Program-made: the position numbers and the translations under genes
Shown here: positions 2,999 through 61,698 of the stretch, in pieces
How positions within the stretch are numbered: the stretch's first letter is position 1
Layout of the letters: every line of letters begins with the position of its first letter
The notes under the pieces: generated by a model
Database searches by the model: none
The model's input: only the letters and a program-made list of their open reading frames with translations
What the model was told of the DNA's origin: nothing
NCBI GenBank assembly: GCA_016934635.1
Contig: JAFGSK010000025.1
Span: forward strand, 1-64,000
Source of the DNA: Caldifarciminota bacterium
Lineage (GTDB): Bacteria > Hydrothermota > Tepidihabitantia > B3-TA06
Length of the DNA: 64,000 nucleotides
Direction: 5' to 3'

Positions 2999-3043
2999 TT
3001 CTAAATTCCTCCTAAAAGTAGTAATTTTCCAATGTTTCGTTTA

Positions 3044-3071
3044 ATTCTAGTCAGGAATCACACGCTGTCAA
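3044..3071 (-). promoter_or_regulatory. sigma70-like promoter of rpmA
   Basis: On the minus strand TTGACA (3066-3071), a 16-bp spacer and TAGAAT (3044-3049). It gives a leader of about 35-40 nt carrying AGGAGG before the rpmA ATG. The remainder of the 2999-3313 gap (about 315 bases) shows no gene and no clear terminator for the upstream operon. Confidence 0.7.
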
Positions 3072-3313
3072 CGACTTGCCGGCAGTACAAATCCGGAACT
3101 TAAATATCACAATACATCTATGAGATAGGTGGTAAATTTGATGAGTTCTCTGTAGAAGGGTTGTATTGTAAAAAGAGAGTCTAACTTAGGTTTGAATCCC
3201 TTTATATGCGAACTTGTTGCCTTCCTGAGAACCGCTGATTACAGAAGCCTATCAATAAGCATGTGTAGGTTTTCTGTATCGATCCCAAAAGGGGTGGATT
3301 TTCAAACAGCCTT

Positions 3314-4381
3314 CTACTTGGGGAGGGAAGTATACACCTTCTGAAAAGCCTGCTTTACATCGTCTTTCTTAACCTCATCAAGTATGGTACATCGTCCCGG
3401 GCGGGTCGATGGCGCGCGTTCCAGAACCTTCAAGAATCCGTCGAAGTCAAGCCCCAGATCCTCAGGGGAGGCAATGAGCTCATTTCTGCGAAGAAACTCG
3501 GCCTGGGCCGACCACGAGTACTCGTCCTGCAGATATGACGTTAACACCGCAAACATGGCAACCTGCTCACCGTGCAGGCTCGGGCTATCCGGATACAATT
3601 CATCGTAGCCGTGGCTTAATAAATGCTCCGAGCCGCTGCACGGACGGCTCGTTCCTGCAATCCCCATAGCTATTCCCGAAAGCACCAGACCCTCGGCAAG
3701 AACGCGTAAAAACGAGGTATCTGCGAAATCAACGCGTTTGGCATCCAACATCTCGAAAGCCGATTTGCGCGCGAGAAGTGCCGCCACGGTATCGTAATGT
3801 ACATGGGTCTTATGATACGACATCAGCCAGTCGTTGGTTGCGGAGATGTTGGATAAAAGGTCACCAACCCCGGCTTTGAGGTTCTGAATTGGGGCAGTGG
3901 TAACCGCCTCCAGATCGACGAGAACGGCAGCAGGCATGTTGACTCCAACACTTCTGGACTCTTTACGGAAACGGATTACAGCAACCGGAGAACAGATCCC
4001 GTCGTTTGAGAGAGAGGTAGGTATACTGACGACAGGTAACATCCTTCTTGCTCCGGCAAATTTAGCTATGTCAATCACCTGACCACCGCCCACACCGATG
4101 AGTACGTCGGGACGGAAATCGTCTATGAATGTTTCAATTTTCTCCACCTCAGGATAGGTGTTGTTTTCTATTTCCTCTGTGTGGATTTTTTTCAGGATAG
4201 TTGAATTTCCAAATCCGGCAGCTACCCTGTCGGAGAGATGTCGGATGTTTGACATGGTCAGGATTAATGGGCGTAAAAACATAAGGTTCGTTTCGTTCAA
4301 AAGCTTACTTGCTGCATCTAAAAGATTATCATCAATCCTGACCTGTATAGGCAAGGATACATTGCTTCCGAATATTGGCAT
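3314..4381 (-). CDS. glycerol-1-phosphate dehydrogenase family protein (AraM/EgsA-like)
   Basis: 355 residues. It carries the NAD(P)-binding motif GVGGGQVIDIAKF (about 96-108), the family motif PTSLSNDGICSP (about 121-132), and three likely zinc ligands: Asp174 in GVGDLLSN, His253 in SEHLLSH and His270 in LHGEQVA. These are hallmarks of the family that reduces dihydroxyacetone phosphate to sn-glycerol-1-phosphate, the archaeal-type glycerol backbone, also made by AraM of Bacillus. The ATG at 4381 directly follows the stop codon of the nucleotidyltransferase (no gap). It is the last gene of a three-gene operon whose other members look like a CTP-dependent activator and a CDP-alcohol transferase, so the product may be activated as CDP-glycerol. 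A related dehydroquinate-synthase-fold enzyme with another substrate is possible. Confidence 0.85.
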   Translation of the reverse strand: MPIFGSNVSLPIQVRIDDNLLDAASKLLNETNLMFLRPLILTMSNIRHLSDRVAAGFGNSTILKKIHTEEIENNTYPEVEKIETFIDDFRPDVLIGVGGGQVIDIAKFAGARRMLPVVSIPTSLSNDGICSPVAVIRFRKESRSVGVNMPAAVLVDLEAVTTAPIQNLKAGVGDLLSNISATNDWLMSYHKTHVHYDTVAALLARKSAFEMLDAKRVDFADTSFLRVLAEGLVLSGIAMGIAGTSRPCSGSEHLLSHGYDELYPDSPSLHGEQVAMFAVLTSYLQDEYSWSAQAEFLRRNELIASPEDLGLDFDGFLKVLERAPSTRPGRCTILDEVKKDDVKQAFQKVYTSLPK

Positions 4382-38441: not shown

Positions 38442-39386
38442 GTGAGAAGAATAGTGTTTTTGGTAGGGTTATTGTTTCCTATAGCTGGGATGATGGCTAT
38501 TACATCCCCGGTTAAGACCAAGACCCTAGCAACCCCTTTGCAAATACAGGATATGTCTGATCTGGCGTTACCTGCGGACACCGTAGGTTTGATCCTGGAC
38601 GAAGGATATGGAGGTACAGGTTACGGTTTGGATGCAGGCGATAGAATAGCTGTACAATTTACACCGGGGGAGTACCCATTTAAGCTTTTAGCCGCAGGTT
38701 ATGCGGCGATTGATTGGGGAGATCGACAGAATGACTGGAATGCCCCGTGCTATTTGATAATCTATGGGGAAGATGCAGGACGCCCCGGTAGTGAGATAGC
38801 AGGCTATGAAGTCCAGGCAGTCGATTCGAGTGTCGTCAATCTCTTCGATCTGTCCGGAGAGAATATCGTCATCAATTCAGGGAGTTTCTTCTGCGCGATT
38901 GAGAACATAACTGAGATAGACCCTTCGGTTATGATTGACATAAAGCCTCCGGTTCACAGAGCAGGCTGGTTTTATGATGATCTCCATGATGGTAGCGGAC
39001 TGCAATGGTATTCCTTTGGTGAACTCCTTTCACCAGACTATCCTGGCATATCTCTGGCCGATACTCTCGATCCAATAATCAGGGCTGTCGGAGTTGAGGG
39101 AAGCGGTATTGTTGAGCTTAAGCCTGATGTTATTACAGTTACTCCAATGGCGACCGTAATTGCCTCAAAGAACACCATCAACTACACCCTTGCTGAGTCA
39201 TGTAACGTCGAGCTTACACTTTGGGATGCAGTGGGTTGCAAGGTGAAGACCATCTACTCAGGTCACGTCGATGCAGGCGAGCACCAGCTTACCTGGGACA
39301 GTACCGGGCTTCCGCGTGGAACCTACTTCGTTTACCTTAAGGCGCTGAATACCGTTACCTCTGCCAAGGTTGTACTGCTGGAGTGA
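38442..39386 (+). CDS. secreted protein with C-terminal FlgD-like / T9SS-type sorting domain
   Basis: 314 residues, GTG start with GGAGG four bases upstream. The signal peptide covers about 1-20. Residues about 60-225 form a beta-rich domain (GDRIAVQFTPGEYPFKLLAAGY, FFCAIENITEIDPSVMID) that clearly matches the C-terminal half of the next gene's product. The last 80 residues are a FlgD-like immunoglobulin fold of the kind used as a C-terminal sorting signal (NTINYTLAESCNVELTLWDAVG, GEHQLTWDSTGLPRGTYFVYLKA, ending TSAKVVLLE). It is probably a cell-surface or secreted protein. The terminator-like hairpin 39399-39432 follows. Confidence 0.75.
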   Translation: MRRIVFLVGLLFPIAGMMAITSPVKTKTLATPLQIQDMSDLALPADTVGLILDEGYGGTGYGLDAGDRIAVQFTPGEYPFKLLAAGYAAIDWGDRQNDWNAPCYLIIYGEDAGRPGSEIAGYEVQAVDSSVVNLFDLSGENIVINSGSFFCAIENITEIDPSVMIDIKPPVHRAGWFYDDLHDGSGLQWYSFGELLSPDYPGISLADTLDPIIRAVGVEGSGIVELKPDVITVTPMATVIASKNTINYTLAESCNVELTLWDAVGCKVKTIYSGHVDAGEHQLTWDSTGLPRGTYFVYLKALNTVTSAKVVLLE

Positions 39387-39547: not shown

Positions 39548-40918
39548 ATGAAGAAGCTATTGCTTTTAGCAGGGGTTGTGGTGGTGATTTTAGGGTTTGT
39601 CGGGTGTCCAAAGATACAAACCGGAGAAATTGTCGTCAACTCCACCCCTACGGGTGCTGCTATTTCCTTAGACGGAGAACCCACAGGCAAGTTGACTAAC
39701 TCTACACTTACCGAGGTAGAGGCCGGCTCTCACACGATAAAGCTTACCCTTGCCGACTATAAGGATTACGATACTACGGTTACAGTGACCGCCGATGAAA
39801 CCGTGACTGTTAATGCGACCTTGGAGTACGAAGGGTATGGTTCTTTATCTGTGATTTCTGACCCAACAGGTGCCTCAATCTGGATAGATGACGTAAATAC
39901 CGGTGAGCTGACTCCTGATACCCTGGACAGCCTGCCCATAGGTTCCCATTCACTTAAACTTACAAGGACCGACTATGTGGATTACGAGACCGATGTAGAC
40001 ATTGAGAAAGACAAGACCACCGCAGTAAACCAAACACTGACGCTAAAACAAGGCACACTGACCGTTAATTCAACCCCAACAGGGGCGTCAATTGAGTTGG
40101 ATGGTACTTCCACCGGCCAACAAACCAACGCTGTTCTTGACGTAGATTACGGTACTCATACGGTTAAGTTAACCCGTGCCGGCTACAAGGTTTGGGATAC
40201 TACGCTGACTGTAAATGAAGCGAGCAGCGGCACCGGAACGATTAATAAAACCCTTGAGACGACTGTTGAGTATGAGATCGTTAATGATGAGGCAGCTCCT
40301 ATAGAGGTCGGTTTCAAGCTGAAAGCAGGAGAACGGATGGCCGTGATGATTACCCCACCCAGTTATCCGTTTGACCTTACCGAGGCCAGTTATGTGCCCA
40401 TGGGGTGGGCAGATGATCCTGATCGTTGGAATACGGAGTGCGATCTGGTGTTCTTTTCCGGCAACGCCACCAACGGGCCAACCACTGAACTGGCGCGTAC
40501 TTCGGTTTCAGCCACCGAAGATTTCAACTTCAATTGGTTTGACGTAAGCGACTTGGATCTCACCTTCGAGTCGGGCAGCTTCTTCTTTGCAGTTGAAAAC
40601 AAGGTCAACGATAATCCCGGCTTGGCCCTGGATGGCGGTTCGCCTGAGCACCATGTATCCTGGATGTACGCTACTTTTCAAGGTCAGATCAGTCCCAAAT
40701 GGTCGCCTTACGATAACATAAATGCAGGCTGGCCCGATAAAATGGGAGATAGCGTTGATGTGATACTTCGCGTCAAGGGTTTTGCCCCCCCTCTAGGCGT
40801 AGTTGAAGTTACACCGACGGTAATCGGTCGAAGCACTTACAACGGTTGGCCGAGGGTTACGCTTCCAGCCGAGGTTATTCACGAAACTCCCTACTTCGAT
40901 CCCAGAAATTACCGGTAA
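39548..40918 (+). CDS. lipoprotein with three PEGA domains
   Basis: 456 residues. The signal peptide ends at a likely lipidated Cys20 (GFVGC). Three PEGA beta-modules follow, at about 26-100, 100-165 and 165-235, each with the pattern V(N/I)S(T/D)PTGA-x-I-x-LDG, then G(S/T)H(T/S)(I/L/V)KL. The second half (about 240-425) repeats the beta domain of the preceding gene's product (GERMAVMITPPSYPFDLTEASY, FFFAVENKVNDNPGLALD). The protein ends without a FlgD-like tail, consistent with lipid anchoring replacing sorting. It is probably on the cell surface or the inner face of the outer membrane. A strong terminator follows. Confidence 0.82.
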   Translation: MKKLLLLAGVVVVILGFVGCPKIQTGEIVVNSTPTGAAISLDGEPTGKLTNSTLTEVEAGSHTIKLTLADYKDYDTTVTVTADETVTVNATLEYEGYGSLSVISDPTGASIWIDDVNTGELTPDTLDSLPIGSHSLKLTRTDYVDYETDVDIEKDKTTAVNQTLTLKQGTLTVNSTPTGASIELDGTSTGQQTNAVLDVDYGTHTVKLTRAGYKVWDTTLTVNEASSGTGTINKTLETTVEYEIVNDEAAPIEVGFKLKAGERMAVMITPPSYPFDLTEASYVPMGWADDPDRWNTECDLVFFSGNATNGPTTELARTSVSATEDFNFNWFDVSDLDLTFESGSFFFAVENKVNDNPGLALDGGSPEHHVSWMYATFQGQISPKWSPYDNINAGWPDKMGDSVDVILRVKGFAPPLGVVEVTPTVIGRSTYNGWPRVTLPAEVIHETPYFDPRNYR

Positions 40919-40936: not shown

Positions 40937-40966
40937 AAAGAGCGGGCGAAGTCCCGCTCTTTTTTT
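40937..40966 (+). terminator. intrinsic terminator after the PEGA lipoprotein gene
   Basis: Stem AAAGAGCGGG/CCCGCTCTTT (ten pairs) with loop CGAAGT and an uninterrupted run of T. The clearest rho-independent terminator in the window. Confidence 0.9.
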
Positions 40967-40985
40967 AAAAAAGGGATTTTGCAGC

Positions 40986-41013
40986 TTGACAATAGGCTTA
41001 AGGCGAATATCCT
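40986..41013 (+). promoter_or_regulatory. promoter of the signalling cluster
   Basis: TTGACA (40986-40991), a 16-bp spacer and TATCCT (41008-41013), 20 bases after the upstream terminator. It presumably drives the whole run of five overlapping or adjacent genes to 58061. Confidence 0.6.
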
Positions 41014-45105: not shown

Positions 45106-48100
45106 TTGGCCGGAAAAGCCAAAAAGCCGCAGAGCATAGCCTCGCGGCGCGAAAGGAGCACTTCATCTACCAGGAGCCAGGTTCGGGACAACATCCAGTC
45201 TTTCGATAATCTTCTCGCTTCGATCAGCTCAGGCAAAAGCTACGACAAGGGGGAGCTTGAACGTATTGCAGGCAAGACCGGTCAGTTAAGAAGACTGGTA
45301 GATGCATTCATCCAGAGGGAAACGGAACTCGAAGATAAAATCAAGACCGAACGAAAAAGAAGTGAAAAACTCAGGAAAAAGGTCGCCGGACTGGAAAACC
45401 TGGAAAGAAGCGATCGAGAGATTTTATACAAGGAGTTGTTCGAACAGGCTCACGATGCAATCTTCATAGAAAATGAAGCAGAGGAGATAGTAGAGGTTAA
45501 CAAACGCGCCTCAGAACTTACCGGATATACGAGATCCCAGCTTTTACAGATGAGGACCAGGGATCTGCAGACAGATGAGTTCAAGAAGGGAAAGACGCTC
45601 GAGGTTTACTCGACCGACAAGCCCTCCGAGGCGGAGGTTCTGGAGACAGTCATCGTAAATCGTAACGGTTCTGAGATACCCGTACACCTTACCCTTGCAC
45701 CCCTGAAGTTCGACGAACGAAAGCTTGTCCTTTCTATAGTCCGCGAGATATCCGACATCAAACGCGCAGAGGAGGCACTTGCGGAGCGGGAAAGGCTTTA
45801 CCGTACACTTGTGAATACAGCACAGGATGCCATCATTCATGCCGACGAAGCCGAGAATATCCTTTTTGCAAATCCTGCAGCCGCCGAGCTTTTAGGAGTA
45901 GATTCGGAAAAATTGGTTGGCAGGAGTTTCTATGATTTCCTGTCCCCAGAGGAATCCAAGATTCTGGTTGATCAGTCGAAGAGAAGGATGAAAGGTGAAA
46001 CCTCCAGATACGAGTTAGGGCTTAAGTGCAAGGATGGAAGCAGACGCGATGTTCTCGTTACGGCGGCGCCAATATACGATTCGGCCGGTAAGGTTACATC
46101 CTCAATGGGGGTTTTGACCGATATTACCGAACGGAAAAGAGCTTTAAAGATACTTGAGAGAGAGCACAAGGCCTTCCGAATAATTGCAGAAGCCTCTGTC
46201 CAAGGGGCAGATATCCCAGATGTCTGTACTAGGATTGTTTCAGGGTTAACAGAAGCCCTGGGATTCGACGCCGGGACATTCAGATCGTACGAGGGTGAGA
46301 CCCTCAGGCTCGAAGCGTCTTTTGGTCTTACGGCAAAGGAGGAGGAACTTGCCGCCGAGCCCCAGAGCGTTAAAGATAATCGTTTTGTAGCGGCATTGAC
46401 CGCGAGGACCAAAAAACCGATTATCGTTTCGGACGCAAGCAAAGAAAAAAGCCTTGAACCTTTCACCGAAAGACTCGGTAAGTTCAAGGAGCGTTCTTTA
46501 ATCTCCTGGCCGGTTACAGGTTCAAAAGGTCACCTTTTAGGGGTATTACACTTTTGGGCAAAGAGCAGAAAAAATATCTCCGCCGGCGACACCGATTTCT
46601 TCGAGAGGATAGCCGGGATGTTTGCGAACGTTCTGGAACGCAGGATAACCGAAGATGCATTGAAGGGAAGCGAGGAGAAGCACCGCACACTCATAATGAG
46701 TATTCGTTCTCCTGTGGTTGCATTGACCGAGGACGCAGGAGTACTTTACTGCAATGATTCATTTGCAGGTCTGTTTCACAGAAAAGCAGAGAAGATCGAA
46801 GGCAGGAACTTTCTCGAGGTCATGCCCGGTTTTTCCGAAACAGAGTTCTATAAGGCGTATCTTGAGACGCTTAAGACCGCTAAAGCTTCGGAAGTAGATG
46901 CCCTGCTCGGGAGTAGGCACTTTCATGCCCGCATCTTCCGTACGCCATGGGGAGTACTATTAATCGCCGAGGACGTTACGGATCGTAAATCCGCAGAGGC
47001 CGAACTCGAACGGTATACCCGATCCATGGAGGGCCTTTACGAACTGGTTAAACAGATAAACCTGTCTGTTGATCTTGCGGATATGTTCACAAGAATCACA
47101 CCGCTGCTTGAGGATAACCCCGGCGTGATAGCAGGTGGCATATACCTGATTGACGGTGCTAGTCTCAGCCTTGAGAGGGGGTTCGGGCCTTCCAGGGGTT
47201 TCTACGAAAAGAATGATACCATCGAAGTTCGGGCAAAAGGAGCAGCAGAAGTTTTAAACACCCGGAGTGCAGTCATCGTTTCTTCTTTTGCCGGGGCCGA
47301 GATCAGTGAAGTGAAGTTCAAGAGGGAAAAAGGGACGATGGTGGGTGTATCGCTTCGTTCGGCAGACGATTTGCTTGGCGCATTTTACATGATTCTAGCC
47401 GGCACCGACGATTACACCTTAGCCTTTATGGAGATGCTGGGCTCTGAGATAGGAACAGGTGTCAAGCGAAAACTCGTGGAAGATGCAATGCGAGATTCAG
47501 AAGAGCGTTTCCGCAGCGTATATGAGAACGTCCCTATCGGCATGTACCGGACTACACCCGATGGTCGTATCATCATGGCCAATCCCGCCATGCTGGATAT
47601 GTTGGGTTGCAAGGGCTTTCACGAGCTTGCCAAGTACGATCTTGAATCAGGAGGGAAGTACGGGCCGCAGTATGATCGATCTGTTTTCAAGGAGAGCATC
47701 GAACGAGAAGAGAGGATAGTAGGATGGGAGACGGTTCTTAAGAAACTTGACGGATCTACGATTACGGTAAGAGAAAATGCAAAGGTTGTTCGCGATGAGG
47801 AGGGGAATCCTCTGTATTACGAGGGGACACTCGAGGATATTACTCAGCTTTCGGTTATTAATGAGATATCAAGGGCGATTTCATCGACCCTTGATGTTAA
47901 AGAACTGTATGGGATCATTCACAACCAGTTGAAGCGCCTTATTACCGCAGATAACTTCTATATAGCTCTCTACGACGAGAGGACCGATGAGGTGAGTTTC
48001 CCTTACGTTTTTCAGGACGGCGGTGTTCAAGAATGGGCCACTCGTAAGGCAGGGAAGGGGATGACCGAGTACGTTATCAGAAAAGGTAAGGCCCAGTTGT

Positions 48101-51100
48101 TTGCGGGTGATAAATCAGATGCCTACCAGAAGGGTACAGAGCTTATCGGTAAACCATCGGAGTCCTGGCTCGGCGTACCCATGATTATAAGAGACAAGGT
48201 TATCGGCGTGATGACCGTACAGTCCTTCGATCCCGATATTGTATATTCCACCAAAGAGATAAACCTTATGCAAACCGTCGCAAACCAGGCCTCTCAAGCC
48301 GTTGAAAACGCACGCGCCTATTCCAATCTGGAACAACGGTTGACCGAGGTTTCGGTGTTTACCGAGATCGCCCGTGCACTCGGGTCAACCCTGCAACTCG
48401 ACGAACTAATGAAACTTATATATAACCAGACTAAGCGTATCATGTACGCCGATAACTTTTACGTCGCGCTTTACGATGAGGAGGGAGGAAGGATTGAATT
48501 CCCCTTTTACATCAGGGATGGAAAGAAGGTGAAAACCCCGGGCCGCAATTTCGGCCAAGGTCTTACCGAGCACGTTATTACTACAAGAGAAGGACTCCTT
48601 TTAAGTTCCAGGAATGCGGAGAAGACAATATCTGCAAAAATCAAGAGGCACACGGTCGGGGAAGCGGCCCAGTCGTGGCTGGGTGCACCAATGGTTTCCC
48701 ATGACCAGGTTCTCGGTATCATTGCTGTACAGAGCACGAAAGATCCCGACCTCTACGATGAGAACCACAAGCGACTTTTGTCCTCAATAGCCAATCAAGC
48801 CGCAGGTGCGGTGGCGAATGCAAAGGCATATTCCGCTCTTGAACGAAAACTTACGGAGCAGTCGGTGTTCAATGAAATCGGCATTGCACTCGGTTCGGTT
48901 CTTGAACTGGATGAGTTGCTCAAAGTAATATACGAACAAACCTCCAGGGTTATGGATACCGATCAATTATACATATCACTTTATGATGAGAAAACAAACA
49001 CCATTGAATTCCCGCTTGTTACAGAAGCAGGTAAAAGTGTAAAAGTTCCTTCTCGCAAGTTCGGCAATAGTGCCACCGAATACGTAATTACAACCCGTAA
49101 GCCCCTGCTCATCAAACGCGACTTTTCAAAAACCATCGAAGCCTTGGGTCTGGAGTTAATCCTTGAGAAAGGGGAGGCGGAACCTTTGTGCTGGCTGGGC
49201 GTTCCCATGATTTCTGCAGATAAGGTCTTGGGGGTTATAGTCGTACAAAATGTAGAGAGGGAAGAGATATTTGGCGAGGACGATCTGCACACCTTGACGA
49301 CTATCGCCAGTCAGGCGGCGGGAGTAGTCGCCAACGCACGGGCCTACGCCAATCAGGAAAGGAGGCTGACCGAACTCTCCGTATTCGCCGAGATCGCTCG
49401 GGCGCTCTCCGCCACACTTGAGCCTGAGGAGCTTATGAAGCTTCTGCACGAACAGACCAAACGCCTCATGGACGCGGATACCTTCTACATTGCCTCCTAC
49501 GACGAGGATCATGGGATTATTGAATTCCCATACTTCATTGAAGATGGAAAATCCGTTGAGGTTCCTTCACGTCCTTTCCGAAAAGGCCTTACTGAATACG
49601 TTATCCGAACCGGGGAGCCTTTTTTAATCCAGCACGATGATTTTGAGGAGGAATGCAAGAAGAGAGGCGTCGAGATGGTCGTAATAGGGAGTACGCCGCT
49701 GTCTTGGCTGGGAGTGCCCATGATCGCACGCGACAAGGTTCTTGGCATCATCTGCACCCAAAGTATAAAGACATCCAATATATACGATGAAAACGACAAA
49801 AACGTGCTTGTCTCGATTGCTAACCAGGCTGCAGGGATGTTTTCAAACGCGCGTGCATACCAGGCCCTGGGGAAGGAGCTTACAGAACGTTCGGTGATAA
49901 ACCAGATAAGCCAGGCGATCAGTTCCACGTTGAATGTAGACGAGCTTTACGGGCTTATCCACTCCCAGATAAAGCGTCTTATCAACGCCGAAAACTTCTA
50001 CATTGCCCTTTATGAGAGGGATACCGACGAGGTAATCTTTCCATACGCGTTCCAGGACGGCTCGCTCCAGGAGTGGGGATCCCGCCGCAGCGGCAAGGGG
50101 ATGACGGAGTACGTTATTTCGACAGGTAAGCCCCAGCTTTTCCAAAAGGATTCAGCACAGGAGGCAACCAGCAGAGGTGTAGAGCATATTGGAAAGAGTT
50201 CATCTTCATGGCTAGGGGTTCCGATGAAGATTCGTAACGAGGTCATCGGTGTAATGACAGTTCAATCGTTCGATCCGGAGATTACCTATACCGAAAGGGA
50301 CATGGAGCTCATGCAGCTTGTTGCCAACCAGGCTGCCCAGGCGGTCGAAAACGCCCGGTCATACTCGGACCTCGAACACAGCCTTACGGAGCTTTCGGTG
50401 TTCAGCGAGGTCGGGAGGGCGCTTGGCGCCACGCTTAATCTGGACGAGCTTATAGAGGTAATATACACCCAGACCTCAAGGGTCATGGATACCCAGAGTT
50501 TCTATATAGCCCTGCATAACGAGGAAGACAACACAGTCGAGTTTCCTTTATTCAAGGCAAGCGACGGGCAGCGCATCAGCCTTCCTCCCCGTAAATTCGG
50601 AAAGGGTCTGACCGAATACGTCATAGGGTCCAGGAAATCGTTGCTGCTTAAGGAAAACGTTGTCGAGGAAGCCCGAAAGATTGGAGTCGAGATAAAGCTG
50701 GTCGGAAACGAGGCCGTTCCTCAGAGCTGGCTTGGAATCCCCATGATCTTCCATGATAAGGTGGTCGGGGTCATCGGTGTCCAGAATACAAAAGAAGCGA
50801 ACATATACGACGAGAGTCACCAGCGTCTCCTGGAAGCGATATCCAACCAGGCCGCAGGAGCGGTTGTGAATGCACGTTCGTATGCACAGATTGAGCGCAG
50901 GTTGACCGAACTTTCAGTCATCAACGAGATAGGTCGAGCACTAGGGACAACCTTTGGTCTGGAAGATCTTCTTGAGATCATTCACGTTCAGATCAGTCGG
51001 ATAATGGATACCGAAAATCTATACATCGCGTTATACGACGAGAGGTCCGAGAGTATCGAATTTCCTTTTGCAATGGACGACGGGAAAAGGGTTTCCTGGC

Positions 51101-54100
51101 CTACGAGACCACTGGGTAATGCATTGACCGATTATATCATTCAAACTCGCGAATCGCTGTTGATAAAGCGGGATGTGATCGAAGTATGCAAAAAACTGGG
51201 AATCGAAATGGTCGTGATAGGTGAATCTCCCCTTTGCTGGCTCGGCGTGCCGATGGTTTCACAGGATAAGGTCATCGGGGTGATTGCTGTACAGAGCACG
51301 CAGAGACCTGAAGTTTTCGACGAAGATCACGAGCGTCTACTGGAATCGGTGGCCAACCAGGCGGCAGGAACGGTGGCAAACGCCAGGGCTTACACGATGC
51401 TTGAAAGACACGGTGGGGAGTTGAGGACTCTTTTTGAAACGGCTTCAGCTGTAGCTTCAGTTCTGGATGAAAAGGAGGTCGCTTCCTTGATCGCCCACAA
51501 GGCAACCGAACTTATAGGTGCATCAGGCTGTACCGTCTACCGATACGAAGAGCTGGCAAACGAATTAGTGGCGCAGACAACGACGCTGAAGGATGGAAGG
51601 GATGAGATACTTGCACATCGCGTAAAGCCGGGCGAGGGAATAACGGGCAAGGCCGCTTCGGAAAGAAAAGAGATCCTAGCAAACCACGTCCACAAAGACC
51701 CCAAGTCGTACCGCATACCGGGAACAAAGGAACTTCCTACATGTCTTATGTCGGTACCACTCATCTCCCACGGCAAACTCCTCGGTGTAATGACGCTTTC
51801 GCGTTTCACGGACGAAGGTTTTGAGGCTCATGATCTCGAGCTTTTCACACTTTTTGCCGCCCAGGTTGCAGATGCCGCGGCCAACTCAAGACTCTTTGCA
51901 AGGCTAAAGGAGTTGAACGAAAACCTTGAGCGTCGGAGTGAGGAGCTCGGAACCCTGTTTAAGACTTCGACCGAACTATCTTCAACCCTTGATGAAGACG
52001 AGGTAGCCAAGCTTATAGCACAAAAGTCAACCGAACTTATCGGCGCTGACGGTTGTACGGTTTACCGCTACGACGCAGCCCAGGAACTCCTTGTACCCCA
52101 GATATCGACCAACAGAAAGAACCGCGAACAGGTAATGAGCTTCAGGTTGAAACTTGGTCAGGGTGTAACCGGTACTGCAGCCAAGGACCGCAGACCCTTG
52201 ATGAAAAATCACGTCCACCTTACCGGTTCGTCAGCACACGTTCCAGGAACAAAAAAGGAACCGACATGTCTTTTGTCAGCACCATTGATATCCAAGGGCG
52301 AACTGATGGGTGCGATGACCTTGACGAGGCTTTCAGAGAAGGAGTTTTCAGAACACGATCTGCAGCTCTTTACCCTTTTCGCCCGCCAGGCTGCAGAAAC
52401 ATTTGCCAACAGTCGTCTGTTCGGTCGGCTGAAAGAGCTGAAGGACAACCTCGAGAAACGAAGTGAGGAACTCAAGACGCTGTTCGATACGTCAACCGAG
52501 CTCTCATCTACCCTGGATGAAAACCAGGTCGCAAAGATCATTGCCGAACGTGCAAAGAGTCTGATTCCTTCATCGGGGTGTACTTTCTATCGTTACGACA
52601 GCGAGGAGGAAAAACTCGTACCTACGGCAACCACTGTTAAGGAAGAAGCAGGACAGAGGATGGTACACAAGATATCACTCGGTGAAGGTGTATCGGGAAG
52701 ATCGGCAGAACTCAAAAAGCCTCTTTTAGAAAACAAGGTTCATCTGAACCCGAAGGCACCACGCATACCGGGTACCGATGAGGTTCATACCAATATCATT
52801 GCAATACCTTTGATGGCCCGCGATGAACTGCTGGGCGACATGACGATAACTAGACTGTACGACGAGGATTTTACAACTCACGACCTGCAGATTGCTACGC
52901 TTTTTGCAAGGCAGGCAGAACAGGCGGTCGCCAATTCTCGACTTTTCAGCCAACTCAAGGAACTGAACGAGGATCTTGAATGTCGTAGCCAGGAGCTTGA
53001 GAATCTGATACGCGTCAGTACAGGGGTTTCGTCCACTCTTGACGAGGAGGAGATGGCGACATATATATCCTCCAAGGCAAAGGAGCTTATTCCATCCACC
53101 GGATGTACCTTTTACAGTTTCAACTCCGCAACCGGCAAGCTCGTACCGATGACTACTACGGTTATGGAAGAGTACGAGGAGCGGATGGCCTACAACGTAC
53201 CTTTAGGTGAAGGGATAACAGGGACGGCTGCCCGAGACAGGCAGACCATTATGGCAAACCGGGTTGACCTTTCCCCAGATGCGGTGTGCGTCCCTGGCAC
53301 CGAGAACCTGCCCACGTCGATTATCTCATCCCCACTCGAGGCACGCGGGGAGCTAATCGGTGCATTGACGCTTGTAAGGATTTCTGAAGAAACATACTCA
53401 GATCACGACAAACAGATATTCTCGCTCTTCACTCGTCAGGTTGCCGAGGCCTTTGCCAATTGTCGGCTTTTCTCACAAATGCGGGATTTCTCAGAGGCAC
53501 TGGAACAGAAGGTATCAGAACGTACACGAGAACTGGAGCGGGCAAAATTCAAACTCGAGGATGTTCACGCCGAGTATAAGGATAGGGTCAAATCGAGACT
53601 CGAAACAATTGCACCTATCCTTGAGAAGGTTGGGAAGGGGGATTTTTCAGAGACTATCCCTATGCCTGAGAAGGCTGACGAGTTTACAGATTTATTCCGC
53701 AATCTCAATCTAATGATATTCGACATGCAGAACCTGGTTGATGAAAACTTGTCCAAGGCCGATGAGCTGCAGAGGTTGAACGAGGACTTGGAGGCCCAGG
53801 TAGCCGAGCGTACACTTGACCTCGAGTCGGCTCACGAGCAATTGAAGGTAATTCACGCCGCTTACAGGGACAGGGTAAACGGTTACCTTGCGATGTTGAG
53901 TCCGGTACTTGAGAAGGTCGGGAGATGGGATTTCAGTCAGTCTCTGCCGGCTGAGGAGATAACCGACGAGTTCAAGGATTTGTTCGATGGTTTGAACAGG
54001 ATGATCGAGAACCTGCGGTTTATGGTAGACGAAAACAACCGGCGAAGCGAGGCTCTCAAGACCTTGCTCGATACAAACACCGAGGTGTCAATTTTGCTCG

Positions 54101-56532
54101 ATGAAAGCAAGGTTACCGAGGTGGTTGTCAAACGTGCCAAGGAGCTTTTTCATGCCGACGCTTGTACCGTGTATAAATACGACCCCCAGGCGAACAATCT
54201 TATCCCTCAGATTACGACCTTTACAGATATGAGAGATGAGGTTCTTTCCCGTAAAATCCCTATGGGTGAAGGAATAACCGGAAGGGTTGCTGCAGTTAGA
54301 GAGTCCATCTGTGAAAGCAAGATAAAAAGCGACATACTGGAGTTCCCGAAAGAGGTTACTAAAGGCAAACCAGTATCAATGATGGCAGCTCCGATGGTTT
54401 CACAAGGGGAATTGATAGGCGTGATGAGTTTGGTCAGATTCGGAGAAGATGGTTTCCTTGCTCATCGTGATATGGAGTTGTTTCAGCTTTTTGCTCTGCA
54501 GGTCGCCGATGCGGCTGCCAACAGTCGACTGTTCGAGAAGCTGAATGATCTGAATGAAAAACTTGAGTCGAAAGTGGCACAGCGAACCGCAGAACTCGAG
54601 GTCGCCAACAAGAAACTCAAGGAGGTTCACGACTCCTATCAGGAGCGTGTACGTCAAAGGCTTTCAACAATAGCACCTGTCATGGAGAAGGTTTCACTGG
54701 GCGACTTCAGCGAGAATATACCTGTCCACGAAACTGAAGACGAGTTTACCGAACTCTTCGTCGGTTTGAACCTGATGATCGACGATCTGCGGTTCATGTT
54801 CGATGAGAATCGCCGCCGCAGTGAGGAACTCAAGGATCTTAACGAAGACCTCAAGAGTCGAAGCGAGGAACTGCGCGAGAGGGAACAACTTTACCGTACA
54901 CTCGTTCAGACCGCACAGGAGGCGATTACCCTTGCCGACGATGAAGAGAACATCATCTTTGCCAATCCAGCTCTCGGAGACCTTCTGGGATATGATCCCT
55001 CTGACCTAGTAGGAATGACTCTTTTGGATTTCATGCCCGAAGAGGAGCGCGATTTCGTACGTGCCCAGACAAGTCTAAGACATAAGGGAGAAACTTCCCG
55101 GTATGAGCTGACACTTATTCACAAGGAAGGTATCAAGCGTAACGTTCTGGTTACCGCAGCTCCTATCTATGATGCGGATGGTAACTATACCGCTTCCATG
55201 GGTATCTTGACCGATATCACGGATCGCAAGCGCTCCGAGCAGGAACGCCAAACTCTGCTTGAGACAACGACCGAAGTGGCAGCCACCCTTGATGAGGTTA
55301 AGGTTTCTGGTCTAATTGCTCAAAGGGCAAAGGACCTTATCAAAGCAGACAGATGTACAATATACAAGTACGATAGCCAGAACGAGATTCTGGTTCCCCA
55401 GACAACTACAGCAAAGAGCCGAGATCGTAAGAAGGTCCTGAGTTACAGTATCGGGCTAGGTGAGGGTGTTACTGGGAAGGCCGCCTCCGAACGCAAACCT
55501 ATCCTTGCCAACAACGTTCATACCGACCCCGATGCTTCGCGTATCCCCGGAACCCCGGAAAGGCCAACCTGTCTGCTTTGTACTCCCCTTATCTCGAAGG
55601 GAGAACTCCTTGGGGTAATGACTCTTACCCGTCTGTCGGAGAATGAGTTTGAAGACCACGATTTGGAACTTTTAACACTCCTTGCCGGGCAGGTTGCAGA
55701 CGCAATGGCCAACAGCCGTCTGCACGGTCAACTCCGCGAACTCAACGAGAACCTCGAAGAGATGGTCGCCAGACGTACGGCAGAGCTTGAGGAATCCAAC
55801 CGCAAAACGAAAGCCTTTGCGAGAGAACTGGAGGAGGTGATTTACGTCACCAGTCACGATTTGAAAACCCCTCTGCGCGCGATATCCGGGTTCAGTCAGT
55901 TCCTTTTTGAGGATTACAATCAGAAGCTTGATGCCAAAGCCCAGCTTTACCTGACTCGACTAATCGATTCGACCAAGAGGATGGAAAGACTTCTGGATGA
56001 TCTTCTCAATATTTCAGCAATCAGCAGAAGCAAGGAAGCCTTTGAGACTATACCTGCAGGTGAGCTTATCAAGGAGGCTGTATTGATGGTCGATACCGGA
56101 GAAGATGTAGATATTATATTTGAGCCTGAGGAGTTGCCTACAGTATACTGTGATCGGGCAAAGATAGTCGAAGTTTTTTTCAATCTAATAGGAAACGGAT
56201 TAAAATTCAACAATAAGCCACGCAAAAGGGTAAAGATCTCTGCCCGAAGCAGTGACGGGTTCCACGAATTTACGGTCGAAGATAACGGAATCGGTATTGA
56301 GAAACGTCACTATGAGCGTATATTTAAGATATTTCAGAGACTTCATCAACGGGAGGCCTATGAAGGCACCGGTGTGGGACTTTCTATGGTCAAGAGGGTG
56401 ATTGAAGAACATAACGGCAGGATATGGGTTGAATCTCAGGTAGGAACGGGTACAATATTCCATTTCACGTTGCCGGAGCGCAACGATGGAACAGGAGAGA
56501 ATGCCAAAGAGAAAGGAGCGAGTGATGGCTGA
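45106..56532 (+). CDS. giant soluble histidine kinase: 5 PAS, 15 GAF and 3 HAMP-like modules
   Basis: 3808 residues, TTG start with GAGG, no membrane helix. Order: coiled coil (about 60-105), PAS1 (108-225), PAS2 (228-350), a divergent GAF (355-510), PAS3 (525-640), a second divergent GAF (645-790) and PAS4 (797-905). Then come seven GAF domains of the first kinase's type (about 910-2100) and four GAF domains of a second type with GEGITG and NHVHxDP...IPGT motifs (about 2103-2800). After these are HAMP-like modules near 2818 and 2916, a GAF at 2981, HAMP-like 3 near 3175, PAS5 near 3258 and the last GAF near 3378. His3584 (TSHDLKTPLR) and an ATPase domain (NGLKFN, DNGIGIEKRHYERIFKIFQRL, GTGVGLSMVKR) close the protein. 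It probably integrates many cytoplasmic signals. Confidence 0.93.
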   Translation: MAGKAKKPQSIASRRERSTSSTRSQVRDNIQSFDNLLASISSGKSYDKGELERIAGKTGQLRRLVDAFIQRETELEDKIKTERKRSEKLRKKVAGLENLERSDREILYKELFEQAHDAIFIENEAEEIVEVNKRASELTGYTRSQLLQMRTRDLQTDEFKKGKTLEVYSTDKPSEAEVLETVIVNRNGSEIPVHLTLAPLKFDERKLVLSIVREISDIKRAEEALAERERLYRTLVNTAQDAIIHADEAENILFANPAAAELLGVDSEKLVGRSFYDFLSPEESKILVDQSKRRMKGETSRYELGLKCKDGSRRDVLVTAAPIYDSAGKVTSSMGVLTDITERKRALKILEREHKAFRIIAEASVQGADIPDVCTRIVSGLTEALGFDAGTFRSYEGETLRLEASFGLTAKEEELAAEPQSVKDNRFVAALTARTKKPIIVSDASKEKSLEPFTERLGKFKERSLISWPVTGSKGHLLGVLHFWAKSRKNISAGDTDFFERIAGMFANVLERRITEDALKGSEEKHRTLIMSIRSPVVALTEDAGVLYCNDSFAGLFHRKAEKIEGRNFLEVMPGFSETEFYKAYLETLKTAKASEVDALLGSRHFHARIFRTPWGVLLIAEDVTDRKSAEAELERYTRSMEGLYELVKQINLSVDLADMFTRITPLLEDNPGVIAGGIYLIDGASLSLERGFGPSRGFYEKNDTIEVRAKGAAEVLNTRSAVIVSSFAGAEISEVKFKREKGTMVGVSLRSADDLLGAFYMILAGTDDYTLAFMEMLGSEIGTGVKRKLVEDAMRDSEERFRSVYENVPIGMYRTTPDGRIIMANPAMLDMLGCKGFHELAKYDLESGGKYGPQYDRSVFKESIEREERIVGWETVLKKLDGSTITVRENAKVVRDEEGNPLYYEGTLEDITQLSVINEISRAISSTLDVKELYGIIHNQLKRLITADNFYIALYDERTDEVSFPYVFQDGGVQEWATRKAGKGMTEYVIRKGKAQLFAGDKSDAYQKGTELIGKPSESWLGVPMIIRDKVIGVMTVQSFDPDIVYSTKEINLMQTVANQASQAVENARAYSNLEQRLTEVSVFTEIARALGSTLQLDELMKLIYNQTKRIMYADNFYVALYDEEGGRIEFPFYIRDGKKVKTPGRNFGQGLTEHVITTREGLLLSSRNAEKTISAKIKRHTVGEAAQSWLGAPMVSHDQVLGIIAVQSTKDPDLYDENHKRLLSSIANQAAGAVANAKAYSALERKLTEQSVFNEIGIALGSVLELDELLKVIYEQTSRVMDTDQLYISLYDEKTNTIEFPLVTEAGKSVKVPSRKFGNSATEYVITTRKPLLIKRDFSKTIEALGLELILEKGEAEPLCWLGVPMISADKVLGVIVVQNVEREEIFGEDDLHTLTTIASQAAGVVANARAYANQERRLTELSVFAEIARALSATLEPEELMKLLHEQTKRLMDADTFYIASYDEDHGIIEFPYFIEDGKSVEVPSRPFRKGLTEYVIRTGEPFLIQHDDFEEECKKRGVEMVVIGSTPLSWLGVPMIARDKVLGIICTQSIKTSNIYDENDKNVLVSIANQAAGMFSNARAYQALGKELTERSVINQISQAISSTLNVDELYGLIHSQIKRLINAENFYIALYERDTDEVIFPYAFQDGSLQEWGSRRSGKGMTEYVISTGKPQLFQKDSAQEATSRGVEHIGKSSSSWLGVPMKIRNEVIGVMTVQSFDPEITYTERDMELMQLVANQAAQAVENARSYSDLEHSLTELSVFSEVGRALGATLNLDELIEVIYTQTSRVMDTQSFYIALHNEEDNTVEFPLFKASDGQRISLPPRKFGKGLTEYVIGSRKSLLLKENVVEEARKIGVEIKLVGNEAVPQSWLGIPMIFHDKVVGVIGVQNTKEANIYDESHQRLLEAISNQAAGAVVNARSYAQIERRLTELSVINEIGRALGTTFGLEDLLEIIHVQISRIMDTENLYIALYDERSESIEFPFAMDDGKRVSWPTRPLGNALTDYIIQTRESLLIKRDVIEVCKKLGIEMVVIGESPLCWLGVPMVSQDKVIGVIAVQSTQRPEVFDEDHERLLESVANQAAGTVANARAYTMLERHGGELRTLFETASAVASVLDEKEVASLIAHKATELIGASGCTVYRYEELANELVAQTTTLKDGRDEILAHRVKPGEGITGKAASERKEILANHVHKDPKSYRIPGTKELPTCLMSVPLISHGKLLGVMTLSRFTDEGFEAHDLELFTLFAAQVADAAANSRLFARLKELNENLERRSEELGTLFKTSTELSSTLDEDEVAKLIAQKSTELIGADGCTVYRYDAAQELLVPQISTNRKNREQVMSFRLKLGQGVTGTAAKDRRPLMKNHVHLTGSSAHVPGTKKEPTCLLSAPLISKGELMGAMTLTRLSEKEFSEHDLQLFTLFARQAAETFANSRLFGRLKELKDNLEKRSEELKTLFDTSTELSSTLDENQVAKIIAERAKSLIPSSGCTFYRYDSEEEKLVPTATTVKEEAGQRMVHKISLGEGVSGRSAELKKPLLENKVHLNPKAPRIPGTDEVHTNIIAIPLMARDELLGDMTITRLYDEDFTTHDLQIATLFARQAEQAVANSRLFSQLKELNEDLECRSQELENLIRVSTGVSSTLDEEEMATYISSKAKELIPSTGCTFYSFNSATGKLVPMTTTVMEEYEERMAYNVPLGEGITGTAARDRQTIMANRVDLSPDAVCVPGTENLPTSIISSPLEARGELIGALTLVRISEETYSDHDKQIFSLFTRQVAEAFANCRLFSQMRDFSEALEQKVSERTRELERAKFKLEDVHAEYKDRVKSRLETIAPILEKVGKGDFSETIPMPEKADEFTDLFRNLNLMIFDMQNLVDENLSKADELQRLNEDLEAQVAERTLDLESAHEQLKVIHAAYRDRVNGYLAMLSPVLEKVGRWDFSQSLPAEEITDEFKDLFDGLNRMIENLRFMVDENNRRSEALKTLLDTNTEVSILLDESKVTEVVVKRAKELFHADACTVYKYDPQANNLIPQITTFTDMRDEVLSRKIPMGEGITGRVAAVRESICESKIKSDILEFPKEVTKGKPVSMMAAPMVSQGELIGVMSLVRFGEDGFLAHRDMELFQLFALQVADAAANSRLFEKLNDLNEKLESKVAQRTAELEVANKKLKEVHDSYQERVRQRLSTIAPVMEKVSLGDFSENIPVHETEDEFTELFVGLNLMIDDLRFMFDENRRRSEELKDLNEDLKSRSEELREREQLYRTLVQTAQEAITLADDEENIIFANPALGDLLGYDPSDLVGMTLLDFMPEEERDFVRAQTSLRHKGETSRYELTLIHKEGIKRNVLVTAAPIYDADGNYTASMGILTDITDRKRSEQERQTLLETTTEVAATLDEVKVSGLIAQRAKDLIKADRCTIYKYDSQNEILVPQTTTAKSRDRKKVLSYSIGLGEGVTGKAASERKPILANNVHTDPDASRIPGTPERPTCLLCTPLISKGELLGVMTLTRLSENEFEDHDLELLTLLAGQVADAMANSRLHGQLRELNENLEEMVARRTAELEESNRKTKAFARELEEVIYVTSHDLKTPLRAISGFSQFLFEDYNQKLDAKAQLYLTRLIDSTKRMERLLDDLLNISAISRSKEAFETIPAGELIKEAVLMVDTGEDVDIIFEPEELPTVYCDRAKIVEVFFNLIGNGLKFNNKPRKRVKISARSSDGFHEFTVEDNGIGIEKRHYERIFKIFQRLHQREAYEGTGVGLSMVKRVIEEHNGRIWVESQVGTGTIFHFTLPERNDGTGENAKEKGASDG

Positions 56533-56959
56533 AAAGAAGATCAATATCCTTCTTGTCGAAGACGACGAGAACGATATTCTGATAACCAAGAGAGCCTTTA
56601 CTAAACACAACCTCTCCAATCGTCTGTACGTAGTCAGAGACGGTGAAGAAGCCTTGGATTTTATCTACCATAACGGCGAGTATTCGGATGAAGAATCTGC
56701 ACCTCGTCCCGGACTTATTCTTCTCGATATCAATATGCCAAAGATGAACGGTATTGAGGTTCTTCGTAAACTAAAGAGCGACCCGGGATATAAGACTATT
56801 CCGGTTGTTATGCTGACGACTTCCAAAAGGGATCAGGACAAAATCGAGAGCTACAATCTCGGTGTGAATTCTTACATCATCAAGCCGGTCGATTTCAACA
56901 AGTTCGTCGATGCTATTGCTACAATAAACCTTTACTGGGAATTAAATGAGCTCCCATGA
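56525..56959 (+). CDS. stand-alone response regulator (Rcp1-like), second copy
   Basis: 144 residues from ATG 56525, which overlaps the giant kinase stop by 8 nt and has GGAG upstream. Receiver only: VEDDEND, phospho-acceptor Asp68 (LILLDINMPKMNG), MLTTSKRDQD and YIIKPVDF. It closely resembles the regulator at 44657, including the final TINLYWELNELP. Its position directly after the giant kinase makes it the likely cognate partner. It has no DNA-binding or enzymatic output, so it must act by protein interaction or phosphorelay. Confidence 0.93.
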   Translation: MAEKKINILLVEDDENDILITKRAFTKHNLSNRLYVVRDGEEALDFIYHNGEYSDEESAPRPGLILLDINMPKMNGIEVLRKLKSDPGYKTIPVVMLTTSKRDQDKIESYNLGVNSYIIKPVDFNKFVDAIATINLYWELNELP

Positions 56960-59050: not shown

Positions 59051-60415
59051 TTACGGAACCGTGTGTCGTTCAGGAGCTTCGGATTCGTCGTAGTACACAA
59101 CCTTGACGATTGAGCGGATTCGCTCCATCCCGTAGAATATCTCCAAAGGTTCTCCCGGCTCGAGGTCATTTACAGCCTCCCAGAAGCTTTCGAAGGATGT
59201 GATCTCGTGGAATACCCCTCGAACCCCTACCGCGCGAACCGGACCAGGATAGGCCTCCCAGGATGCAGCCGCACTTTCCTCCTCGACGTCCGCCACGTAC
59301 ACCGCAGAGGAATCCATATCGTACCAGTACTGAAGAAACCGGCTCATCGGTTGAACAATCATCCCGGCTATCGAGATGTACTCCTTGGGCCGGTCGGCAG
59401 ACCGGTCGGCGGCGAGGAGATGGAAGTCGATCTTTTCGCCGAATCGCGATACGGTAAGTGTACAAATCCGGTCAGCAAGGTCCTTCATCATCACCATATA
59501 GTCGGCTTCGTCGGCAGGGATTTTACCGTTTATCGCGTAGACGATGTCTCCAGGCATCACGCCCGCTTTGTCGCCGACATTATTGGGCGCTACAGTATTT
59601 ACGAGAACGCTTTTATGTACGTATTCGGGGAGTTCGGTCTTGAAACTCTCCATGGCGCGTGCAGGGGTGATCTCTGTGACGTCAAACCCCATCCAACCCA
59701 CGTGTCCGGTGTAGGGAAGTTCACCTGCAACCACCAGCTTGACCAAAGATTTCACCTGGTTGATAGCAAGGCTCCAGCCTATTCCCTGCCCTGAGGTGGC
59801 TGCGTTGATGCCTATCACCGAGCCGTTATCCATCAGGATCAGCGGACCCCCTGAATTACCCGGATTGATCGGTGCATCGGTCTGGATGAATTTGCCGGTT
59901 CCTGTTGGAGGCGTGTTGGTGGTTGAGCTGACTATTCCATCCGTGCCCGAGAACTCTATTCCCACAGGATGACCGAACGTGCCGACCCGATCACCTATCT
60001 TTAACCTCTCAGAGTTACCCAGCTTGGCAATCTTAATATCCGCAGGAACCCCTGGTTCGTCCAGGCGAAAGCGAATCATCCCGAAGTCGTAAACCGGGTC
60101 AATATATATAGGTTCAGCCTCGATGCGTTCACCATCCTTAAAACTGATCTGCGCGTTACATATACCGTCCCCTATTACGTGTTCACAAGTAACGACATAC
60201 GCGTAACCCTCAGCACGATCGATATGCACGATGAATCCTGAACCCTGACCTGATCCCCGTTTTGAACTCTCGAGTGCAACTGTCGTAGTCACGTAGACCC
60301 TTACCGAATATTTCTCCGCTTCGGCAAAGACCTCAGCCGAATTTGCAGCTATAATTATGCTTGCTGAAAGAATTATTATCGAGATAATCTTGGTAACTGA
60401 TATGGCATTAGACAT
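59051..60415 (-). CDS. HtrA/DegP-like serine protease with PDZ domain
   Basis: 454 residues. The signal peptide is about 1-27. The trypsin-like domain has the complete triad: His79 (VVTCEHVIG), Asp110 (DPVYDFGMIRF) and Ser188 (INPGNSGGPL), with the oxyanion loop TDAPINPGNSGG. A PDZ domain follows at about 255-335 (VAPNNVGDKAGVMPGDIVYAINGKIP). The last 100 residues form another beta-rich, PDZ-like region without a strong signature. It acts in the periplasm on misfolded proteins. GGAGAGG precedes the ATG at 60415. It lies 49 bases downstream of tRNA-Lys on the same strand and no separate promoter is clear, so it may be read through from the tRNA promoter. Confidence 0.92.
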   Translation of the reverse strand: MSNAISVTKIISIIILSASIIIAANSAEVFAEAEKYSVRVYVTTTVALESSKRGSGQGSGFIVHIDRAEGYAYVVTCEHVIGDGICNAQISFKDGERIEAEPIYIDPVYDFGMIRFRLDEPGVPADIKIAKLGNSERLKIGDRVGTFGHPVGIEFSGTDGIVSSTTNTPPTGTGKFIQTDAPINPGNSGGPLILMDNGSVIGINAATSGQGIGWSLAINQVKSLVKLVVAGELPYTGHVGWMGFDVTEITPARAMESFKTELPEYVHKSVLVNTVAPNNVGDKAGVMPGDIVYAINGKIPADEADYMVMMKDLADRICTLTVSRFGEKIDFHLLAADRSADRPKEYISIAGMIVQPMSRFLQYWYDMDSSAVYVADVEEESAAASWEAYPGPVRAVGVRGVFHEITSFESFWEAVNDLEPGEPLEIFYGMERIRSIVKVVYYDESEAPERHTVP

Positions 60416-60537: not shown

Positions 60538-61698
60538 TTACGTGTCTACGTTACTTGTGAGATTGTCAACCGCCCTTATTTCAGATTGCACCAATTTTGC
60601 ACCGATTTCGTCTACTGCGGCCCTGAGTTTCGAGTCCTCAATGTGAGTATACCGGTCAACCATTGCTATAGTCTTGTGTCCGGTCAATGCCTTTATCTCG
60701 AATGCGTTCCGGCCCGACATACCCAGGTATGAAGCGAAGGTATGCCTGAGGTCGTGAAAGCGAAAGTTCTCAACTCCGGCTTGTCTGCAAGCGTTCTCAA
60801 AGCTTCTTCTCCAGTTTCCGTAAGCCTGCCCGTCCGGTCTTGAAAACACGTAACGTGAGTGAGGTCTTTCGATATGAAGTCCGTGCAATACGGGCAGCAA
60901 GTCCTTACTGATCGGTATATGACGAATCTCGTTATTTTTCGTTTCCTTGACCGTGATTATTCCCTTGGGCAAGTTCACGTCATCCCAGGTCAGTCTTTGC
61001 ATTTCGCCTTTACGCATACCGGTTGAAAGCGCAGTCAAGACAATCGGATAAAGCAGAGTGTTTTTGCTTTGCTTGCACGCATCCAGCAAACGTTCACGTT
61101 CACAGTCCGTAAGAAACCTGATTCTGCCCGAAGACTCCTTGAAAGGCCTTACCTTCTTTCCTGGGTTTTCCTTGAGGTATCCCCAGTCAACGGCCTTCGT
61201 CAACATATGCCTGAGTAATGCAAGCTCACGGTTGACCGATTCAGGTTTAACGTCTTTTCTGCGTCTCTGCATGAACCGCTCTATTTCGTGTACCGTTATC
61301 TCTTTAAGCTTTCGTGATCCGAAGGCCCTGGACAGGGTTCGCATCGTATACTTTTCACGTTCACTAGTAGAGGTTGCCTTGTTATCCTTAGCATAGGGTA
61401 CGTACTCACTTTTGAGTCCTGAAAATGTCGTTACGCGTTTGTCATTTATACTTAGTGCATCGTTAAAAGCAACATTGTCAACAATCTTACCAAGTTTTTG
61501 TAGAGCATGGGAGTAGTCGGTTTCTCTTGTGGAGATCATTCGACTTTTCCCGTTCAGCGTAAACCTAACATACCAGCGTCCGTTATTACGCAGGTATAAT
61601 TTCACACCAGCCGTAAGTTTACCACCATAAAGGGAGAAGTCAACCTGTGAGAGCAGTTTCGAGGGCTTGAAGGTTATGATTCTAGAGCTGCTCCCCAT
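60538..61698 (-). CDS. int: tyrosine recombinase / integrase
   Basis: 386 residues. An arm-type DNA-binding N-terminus is followed by a SAM-like core-binding domain (about 95-180) and a catalytic domain with all residues present: Arg229 (STGMRKGE), Lys254 (VKETKNNEIRHIP), His315 and Arg318 (FHDLRHTF), His341 (LTGHKTI) and Tyr350 (MVDRYTHI). It catalyses site-specific integration and excision of the element at tRNA-Lys. The last codon before the TAA touches the tRNA 5' base. AGGGTGA precedes the ATG. It is the last gene of a minus-strand run with the HUH-like gene and a small protein. Confidence 0.95.
   Translation of the reverse strand: MGSSSRIITFKPSKLLSQVDFSLYGGKLTAGVKLYLRNNGRWYVRFTLNGKSRMISTRETDYSHALQKLGKIVDNVAFNDALSINDKRVTTFSGLKSEYVPYAKDNKATSTSEREKYTMRTLSRAFGSRKLKEITVHEIERFMQRRRKDVKPESVNRELALLRHMLTKAVDWGYLKENPGKKVRPFKESSGRIRFLTDCERERLLDACKQSKNTLLYPIVLTALSTGMRKGEMQRLTWDDVNLPKGIITVKETKNNEIRHIPISKDLLPVLHGLHIERPHSRYVFSRPDGQAYGNWRRSFENACRQAGVENFRFHDLRHTFASYLGMSGRNAFEIKALTGHKTIAMVDRYTHIEDSKLRAAVDEIGAKLVQSEIRAVDNLTSNVDT
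60543..60569 (-). promoter_or_regulatory. possible tRNA-Lys promoter inside the integrase 3' end
   Basis: Minus strand TTGACA (60564-60569), a 15-bp spacer and TAGACA (60543-60548), five bases before the tRNA 5' end. If real, the mobile element carries the tRNA promoter within its integrase coding sequence. Confidence 0.4.

Follow-up and report, generated by a model that had tools for sequence, protein, structure and literature searches.

A 3808-residue soluble histidine kinase with a long GAF array, encoded in a five-gene cassette of a WOR-3 bacterium

The locus described here lies within a 64,000-nucleotide stretch of DNA (the window) from the draft MAG, in 90 contigs, of a member of the bacterial phylum WOR-3, which is uncultured. 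It comprises five genes on the forward strand that code, in order, for a histidine kinase (HK1), a single-domain Rcp1-like response regulator (RR1), a giant histidine kinase, a second Rcp1-like response regulator (RR2), and a protein with REC, HisKA and HATPase domains (the REC-kinase) (Table 1). Neighbouring genes either overlap or lie 8 nt apart; RR1 overlaps HK1 by 4 nt, while RR2, listed as an open reading frame from 56486, likely starts at an ATG that overlaps the stop codon of the giant, and the five genes probably form one operon in which the giant is third. The nearest solved relatives of RR1 are single-domain Rcp-like receivers, its PDB matches including RcpB, RcpA and RCP1; regulators of the Rcp1 type serve as partners of phytochrome kinases. 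No recognised output domain, either DNA-binding or enzymatic, was found in any gene of the cassette. HK1 is preceded by a terminator-like hairpin and by a promoter-like site that is suggestive only, the surrounding region overall not being enriched. An earlier note on this DNA had left RR1 out of its account, and had overlooked the five-gene operon, the kinship of the giant's GAF-A domains with those of the upstream kinase, and the relatives carrying a single GAF that are described below.

Table 1. Features of the cassette and domain map of the giant kinase (positions in the window; G001, G002, G003 and G007 are relatives described in the text)
Feature	Residues	Positions	Strand	Basis or remark
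Terminator-like hairpin and T run		40944..40967	+	After the PEGA gene (39548-40918); consensus match only, well placed
Promoter-like site TTGACA-16-TATCCT		40986..41013	+	Ahead of HK1; 10/12 matches, suggestive only
HK1	1191 aa	41085..44660	+	HAMP-like segment, five GAF-A, HisKA kinase
RR1, single-domain Rcp1-like response regulator	146 aa	44657..45097	+	Pfam Response_reg E 1e-21
Giant kinase	3808 aa	45106..56532	+	TTG 45106 to TGA 56532, single frame
PAS1, PAS2	102-220, 225-345	45409..46140	+	Pfam and custom profiles
Divergent GAF	353-515	46162..46650	+	Custom profile, 104 bits; G001 ortholog 71% identical
PAS3	519-629	46660..46992	+	Pfam and custom profiles
Fifteenth, GAF-like domain (weak)	~635-790	47008..47475	+	Pfam GAF E 0.003, below cut-off
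PAS4	795-912	47488..47841	+	Pfam and custom profiles
Block of seven GAF-A	914-2099	47845..51402	+	Repeat spacing 504-519 nt
GAF-A3 (within the block)	1251-1416	48856..49353	+	Missing in same-genus ortholog (G001); ortholog in G007
Four GAF-B	2105-2792	51418..53481	+	Repeat spacing 525 nt
Two HAMP-like helical segments	2795-2884, 2891-2980	53488..54045	+	Custom profile; singly weak by Pfam HAMP
GAF-B5	2983-3146	54052..54543	+	Custom profile
HAMP	3149-3238	54550..54819	+	Pfam HAMP, above cut-off
PAS5	3256-3376	54871..55233	+	Pfam and custom profiles
GAF-B6	3380-3543	55243..55734	+	Pfam and custom profile
HisKA and HATPase core	3570-3791	55813..56478	+	His3584 at 55855-55857, H-box SHDLKT
RR2, second Rcp1-like response regulator		56525..56959	+	Response_reg E 3e-21; likely start ATG 56525
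REC-HisKA-HATPase protein	371 aa	56946..58061	+	Pfam; counterparts in G001, G002, G003

The giant is encoded in a single frame that opens with TTG (in frame, the next possible starts are TTG 45436 and ATG 45550); a stop-free run of 3808 codons has a chance of about 10^-86 at this base composition, and the remaining two frames of the same strand hold 199 and 190 stops over the gene. A coiled N-terminus (residues 1-101) is followed by two PAS domains, a GAF, a PAS, a weak GAF-like domain, a PAS and seven GAF-A domains, after which come four GAF-B domains, two HAMP-like segments, a GAF-B, a HAMP, a PAS, a GAF-B and the HisKA and HATPase domains, so that about twenty sensor modules are lined up in one protein. 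Pfam and custom profiles agree on this order: Pfam recognised GAF_2 in 14 stretches (E 9e-232), five PAS (E 4.7e-65), and HisKA (E 2e-12), HATPase_c (E 9e-26) and HAMP, each above cut-off, and the custom profiles gave seven GAF-A, six GAF-B, one divergent GAF, five PAS and three HAMP-like segments. The phospho-acceptor is the H-box residue His3584, and the G1 and G2 boxes are present as DNGIGI and GTGVGL. No membrane segment was found in the giant, its highest 19-residue hydropathy (1.7) falling within a GAF beta strand.

Much of what the earlier note had read from this gene thus reappears, namely one intact frame ending in a complete kinase core, with exact coordinates, two GAF families arranged in blocks of seven and then six, five PAS domains, His3584, and a soluble protein. 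Its counts of fifteen GAF domains, two of them divergent, and of three HAMP-like modules are likewise right, with caveats. Fourteen GAFs are clear, including the divergent domain at 353-515; the other divergent candidate falls below the Pfam cut-off and gives a poor structure model (pLDDT 47), and its probability against the GAF-A and GAF-B profiles is low (4-5%), yet the stretch that aligns is the corresponding one, and counterparts that precede a PAS exist in the relatives G001 and G002. As for the HAMP-like modules, all three are recovered by profile, but only the third passes the Pfam cut-off when taken alone.

Relatives were sought among 147 WOR-3 genomes, where strong matches to the GAF-A array in giant frames are confined to one family (f1) of eight genomes, G000 (that of the window) to G007; the longest matched frame outside the family has 1372 aa. 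These genomes are draft MAGs, and in each of the eight the kinase can be recognised together with its neighbours, the locus being present in the seven relatives. With the weak domain included, the protein in this position has 15 GAFs in the window, 14 in G001 and 12 in G002 (2861 aa), of which 14, 13 and 11, respectively, are clear and one in each is the weak GAF-like domain. The ortholog in G007 has about eight (at least eight), split over two contigs that both end within one and the same GAF-B and between which no exact DNA overlap was found. In G003-G006, the same gene cassette holds at this place a kinase of 635-764 residues with one GAF, of the GAF-B type, together with the giant's N-terminal leader and kinase core. 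The H-box reads SHDLKT in every giant ortholog that has the core, and SHDLKA in every ortholog of HK1. In a tree of IF-2, G007 groups with G003-G006 and G002 falls outside them, with moderate support (81-99); because of this placement, the simplest reading is that the family ancestor would already have had a giant, contraction having followed before G003-G006. An AU test does not require that G003/G004 and G005/G006 contracted to one GAF independently of each other (p 0.50).

Other features of these genomes are of note in their own right. Upstream of the cassette lie a FlgD_ig-like protein (38442-39386) and a PEGA-repeat protein with a signal-like N-terminus (39548-40918), both of which have counterparts likewise upstream in G003, and the former also in G002. 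Downstream, a DegP-like trypsin-PDZ gene (59051-60415) is followed by a tyrosine recombinase of the phage-integrase family (60538-61698, reverse strand), and GC content drops to 0.41 at the end of the window, perhaps reflecting a mobile element; a protein of about ten HEAT/PBS-lyase repeats is encoded at 233-1810. The genome of the window contains a second giant frame, of 3175 aa (L034:4583-14107, on contig C53, reverse strand), with a dozen or more PAS, four GAF and a HisKA_3-type kinase end, whose counterpart may be a 3252-aa frame on contig C24 of G002. Long PAS-rich kinase frames also occur in G006 (L047:559-7050, 2164 aa) and G007 (L044:8434-14193, 1920 aa), and directly after each comes a frame of 478-494 aa. 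A tendency towards giant sensor kinases seems to mark the family.

G001 is a separately assembled genome of the same genus (WOR-3 isolate RBin_337, contig WJJO01000442), in which the ortholog is a 3370-residue frame that runs off its contig, with the C-terminus on a second contig overlapping by 9 nt. The two proteins are collinear over 3360 residues and 77.6% identical, and the sole gap of more than 10 residues spans 172 residues, or one whole GAF. The ratio dN/dS is about 0.07 overall, with a range of 0.03-0.27 wherever computable (below 0.15 in every computable domain, 0.27 in the N-terminal coil), these values being rough given that dS is large, near saturation, and saturated in several domains. 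The gene is under purifying selection in all regions compared, and a decaying gene is ruled out by the low dN/dS and the intact catalytic motifs. In a tree of individual domains, the window's clear array GAFs pair with those of G001 in the same order, except for GAF-A3, which pairs with a domain of G007 (100/100) and, having an ortholog there, was lost by G001. Orthologous GAFs are 79% identical and paralogs within one protein 48%, no homogenisation being seen; domain-specific positions amount to five columns only, too few to weigh. The domain trees indicate that the array is old and predates the radiation of the family, including the separation of genera g1, g2 and g3. This accords with the earlier note's view that the copies, which are 60-76% alike in DNA, do not reflect a recent expansion.

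GAF-A5-A6, the only domain pair of the giant modelled with confidence, was predicted by AlphaFold (pLDDT 84) to consist of two GAF folds joined by a single 46-residue helix, and its closest solved structures are the tandem GAFs of PDE5A (Z 25) and PDE2A (Z 23), with PDE6 also among the best matches and CyaB2 at Z 20. PDE5A, PDE2A and the adenylate cyclase CyaB2 likewise have two GAFs with a long helix between them, and GAF-B is nearest in sequence to CyaB2; the giant differs from these proteins in being a kinase rather than a cyclase or phosphodiesterase, in an array of 13 GAFs as opposed to two, and in lacking the NKFDE (NKXnFX3DE) motif of cyclic-nucleotide GAFs, which is absent from its 14 clear GAFs and from the five of HK1. 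Since several GAF-A domains (A1, A2, A5 and A6) contain no cysteine at all, bilin attachment is not expected; the GAF-B domains share one cysteine. A sequence match to the GAF of DevS, one of the heme GAFs (DosS/DevS), was also found, with histidine sites, at most candidates for the proximal heme ligand, that differ among copies.

Individual traits of the giant have precedents. A long row of GAFs in one protein, serving signal integration, is known from the cyanobacteriochrome PtxD (NpF2164) of Nostoc punctiforme, with up to seven GAF domains (PMC5812497; PMC6696110), in comparison with which the giant has double the GAFs, five PAS domains, another GAF family and a histidine kinase core. Seven, in PtxD, was the highest GAF number in the literature searched, where none was found naming eight, ten, twelve or fifteen, and no paper on WOR-3 kinases was found there. 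Some Chloroflexota kinases likewise bear many GAFs, and for this reason, and because the census was made within WOR-3, no record is claimed. Like the giant, Cph1 and bacteriophytochrome kinases combine a HisKA domain with GAF/PAS input and have a single-domain regulator of the Rcp1-like type as neighbour, but the giant has no phytochrome PAS-GAF-PHY core by Pfam, and its probable operon holds two regulators and three kinases. Finally, archaeal soluble multi-PAS/GAF kinases are also cytoplasmic, with many PAS and GAF domains, REC-only regulators and REC-kinases, and their output is thought to occur via protein contact (PMC5847659); the giant is distinguished from them by its very long array and its origin in a WOR-3 bacterium.

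These features fit, with fair probability in our judgement, a functional histidine kinase, dimeric and cytoplasmic, that would integrate many intracellular signals through an old array, with RR2 and perhaps RR1 as partners. The 14 or 15 GAF and five PAS domains would be strung along a single long helical spine, and ligand binding in any module could shift the helices and thereby bias the sole, C-terminal kinase. Passage of signals along helices between sensor modules is an accepted scheme, in which the coiled coils between GAFs may be parallel or antiparallel (PMC1592074). The kinase would then phosphorylate the adjacent Rcp1-like regulators, RR2 and perhaps RR1, and the REC-kinase at the end of the operon would relay the signal onward. 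Given that the cassette has no DNA-binding or enzymatic output domain, output probably takes place via protein-protein contact. A DxxT sequence in the H-box suits kinase-phosphatase enzymes; as HK1 has SHDLKA where the giant has SHDLKT, HK1 may, at a guess from this motif, lack the phosphatase side.

The function of the array could also be viewed differently, most of its GAFs being structural, dimerising elements that set length, and only a few, such as the terminal PAS and GAF near the kinase, still sensing. The free shift of repeat number among relatives (1, ~8, 11, 13 and 14 clear GAFs) speaks in favour of this possibility, as do the search for known ligand motifs, in which none was found, and the lineage of G003-G006, which manages with one GAF and for which the long array is thus dispensable to the pathway. 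A role in length alone, however, sits poorly with the fact that every GAF has stayed individually distinct since the genera diverged, without homogenisation and with low dN/dS in each, and we consider it rather unlikely, if still worthy of attention.

Under the favoured reading of a signal-integrating kinase, the array would have grown by duplication of the giant's own GAF-B and by GAF-A domains that the giant has in common with neighbouring HK1. In the domain tree, the single GAF carried by the short forms clusters with the GAF-B domains, which marks GAF-B as the native type. The phylogeny of individual GAFs across both kinases, which the earlier note had recommended, also revealed that the giant's GAF-A domains are not monophyletic (AU test, p 9e-7) and are intermixed with those of HK1, giant A1 and A5 (with their G002 and G007 counterparts) standing next to HK1 domain g05 (99/97 and 100/95). 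This intermixing suggests that GAF-A sensor cassettes were probably exchanged between the neighbouring genes. As HK1 has GAF-A in every genome, transfer from HK1 to the giant would be the simplest direction, although the tree, being unrooted, does not fix it. That both kinases instead inherited GAF-A from one ancestral kinase, before duplication of a kinase-regulator pair, would agree with this lack of a root and with the appearance of the two pairs, which look like a tandem duplication; in addition, a specific recent transfer in G007, from HK1 into the giant, has tree support of 98/86 but is not required by the AU test (p 0.26). Nonetheless, the nesting of A1 and A5 beside g05 asks for exchange after the kinases separated, and the kinase cores of HK1 and the giant are well apart, so that common inheritance is regarded as unlikely.

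An assembly artefact, in which several genes were joined or copies of the repeat were collapsed or added, might be suspected in a draft MAG with an array that is repetitive at the protein level, but it is highly improbable: no exact internal repeat exceeds 18 nt, a length too short to have misled the assembler, the copies are diverged in DNA, giant orthologs occur in two further genera, and the independently assembled, collinear G001 ortholog revealed, without recourse to the long reads that the earlier note had suggested, neither fused nor collapsed genes.

The giant is thus an extreme yet legible soluble multi-sensor histidine kinase, and it gives a measure of the number of sensor modules that selection can maintain in a single bacterial kinase. 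The family provides a natural series of one, about eight, twelve, fourteen and fifteen GAFs on the same core and in the same cassette, with which one may ask whether each sensor contributes an input or mere length; it also allows the intermixing of sensor domains between adjacent paralogous kinases to be traced. We put forward tentatively, as a possibility that falls somewhat short of being probable, that HK1 was the donor and the giant the acceptor of GAF-A cassettes, and that whole domains were later removed from or added to the resulting mega-sensor, lineage by lineage, until in one clade a single GAF was left; the product would be a rod that reads many metabolites via one kinase. If this is true, the rod would be cytoplasmic and very long, each GAF with its 46-residue helix adding several nanometres.
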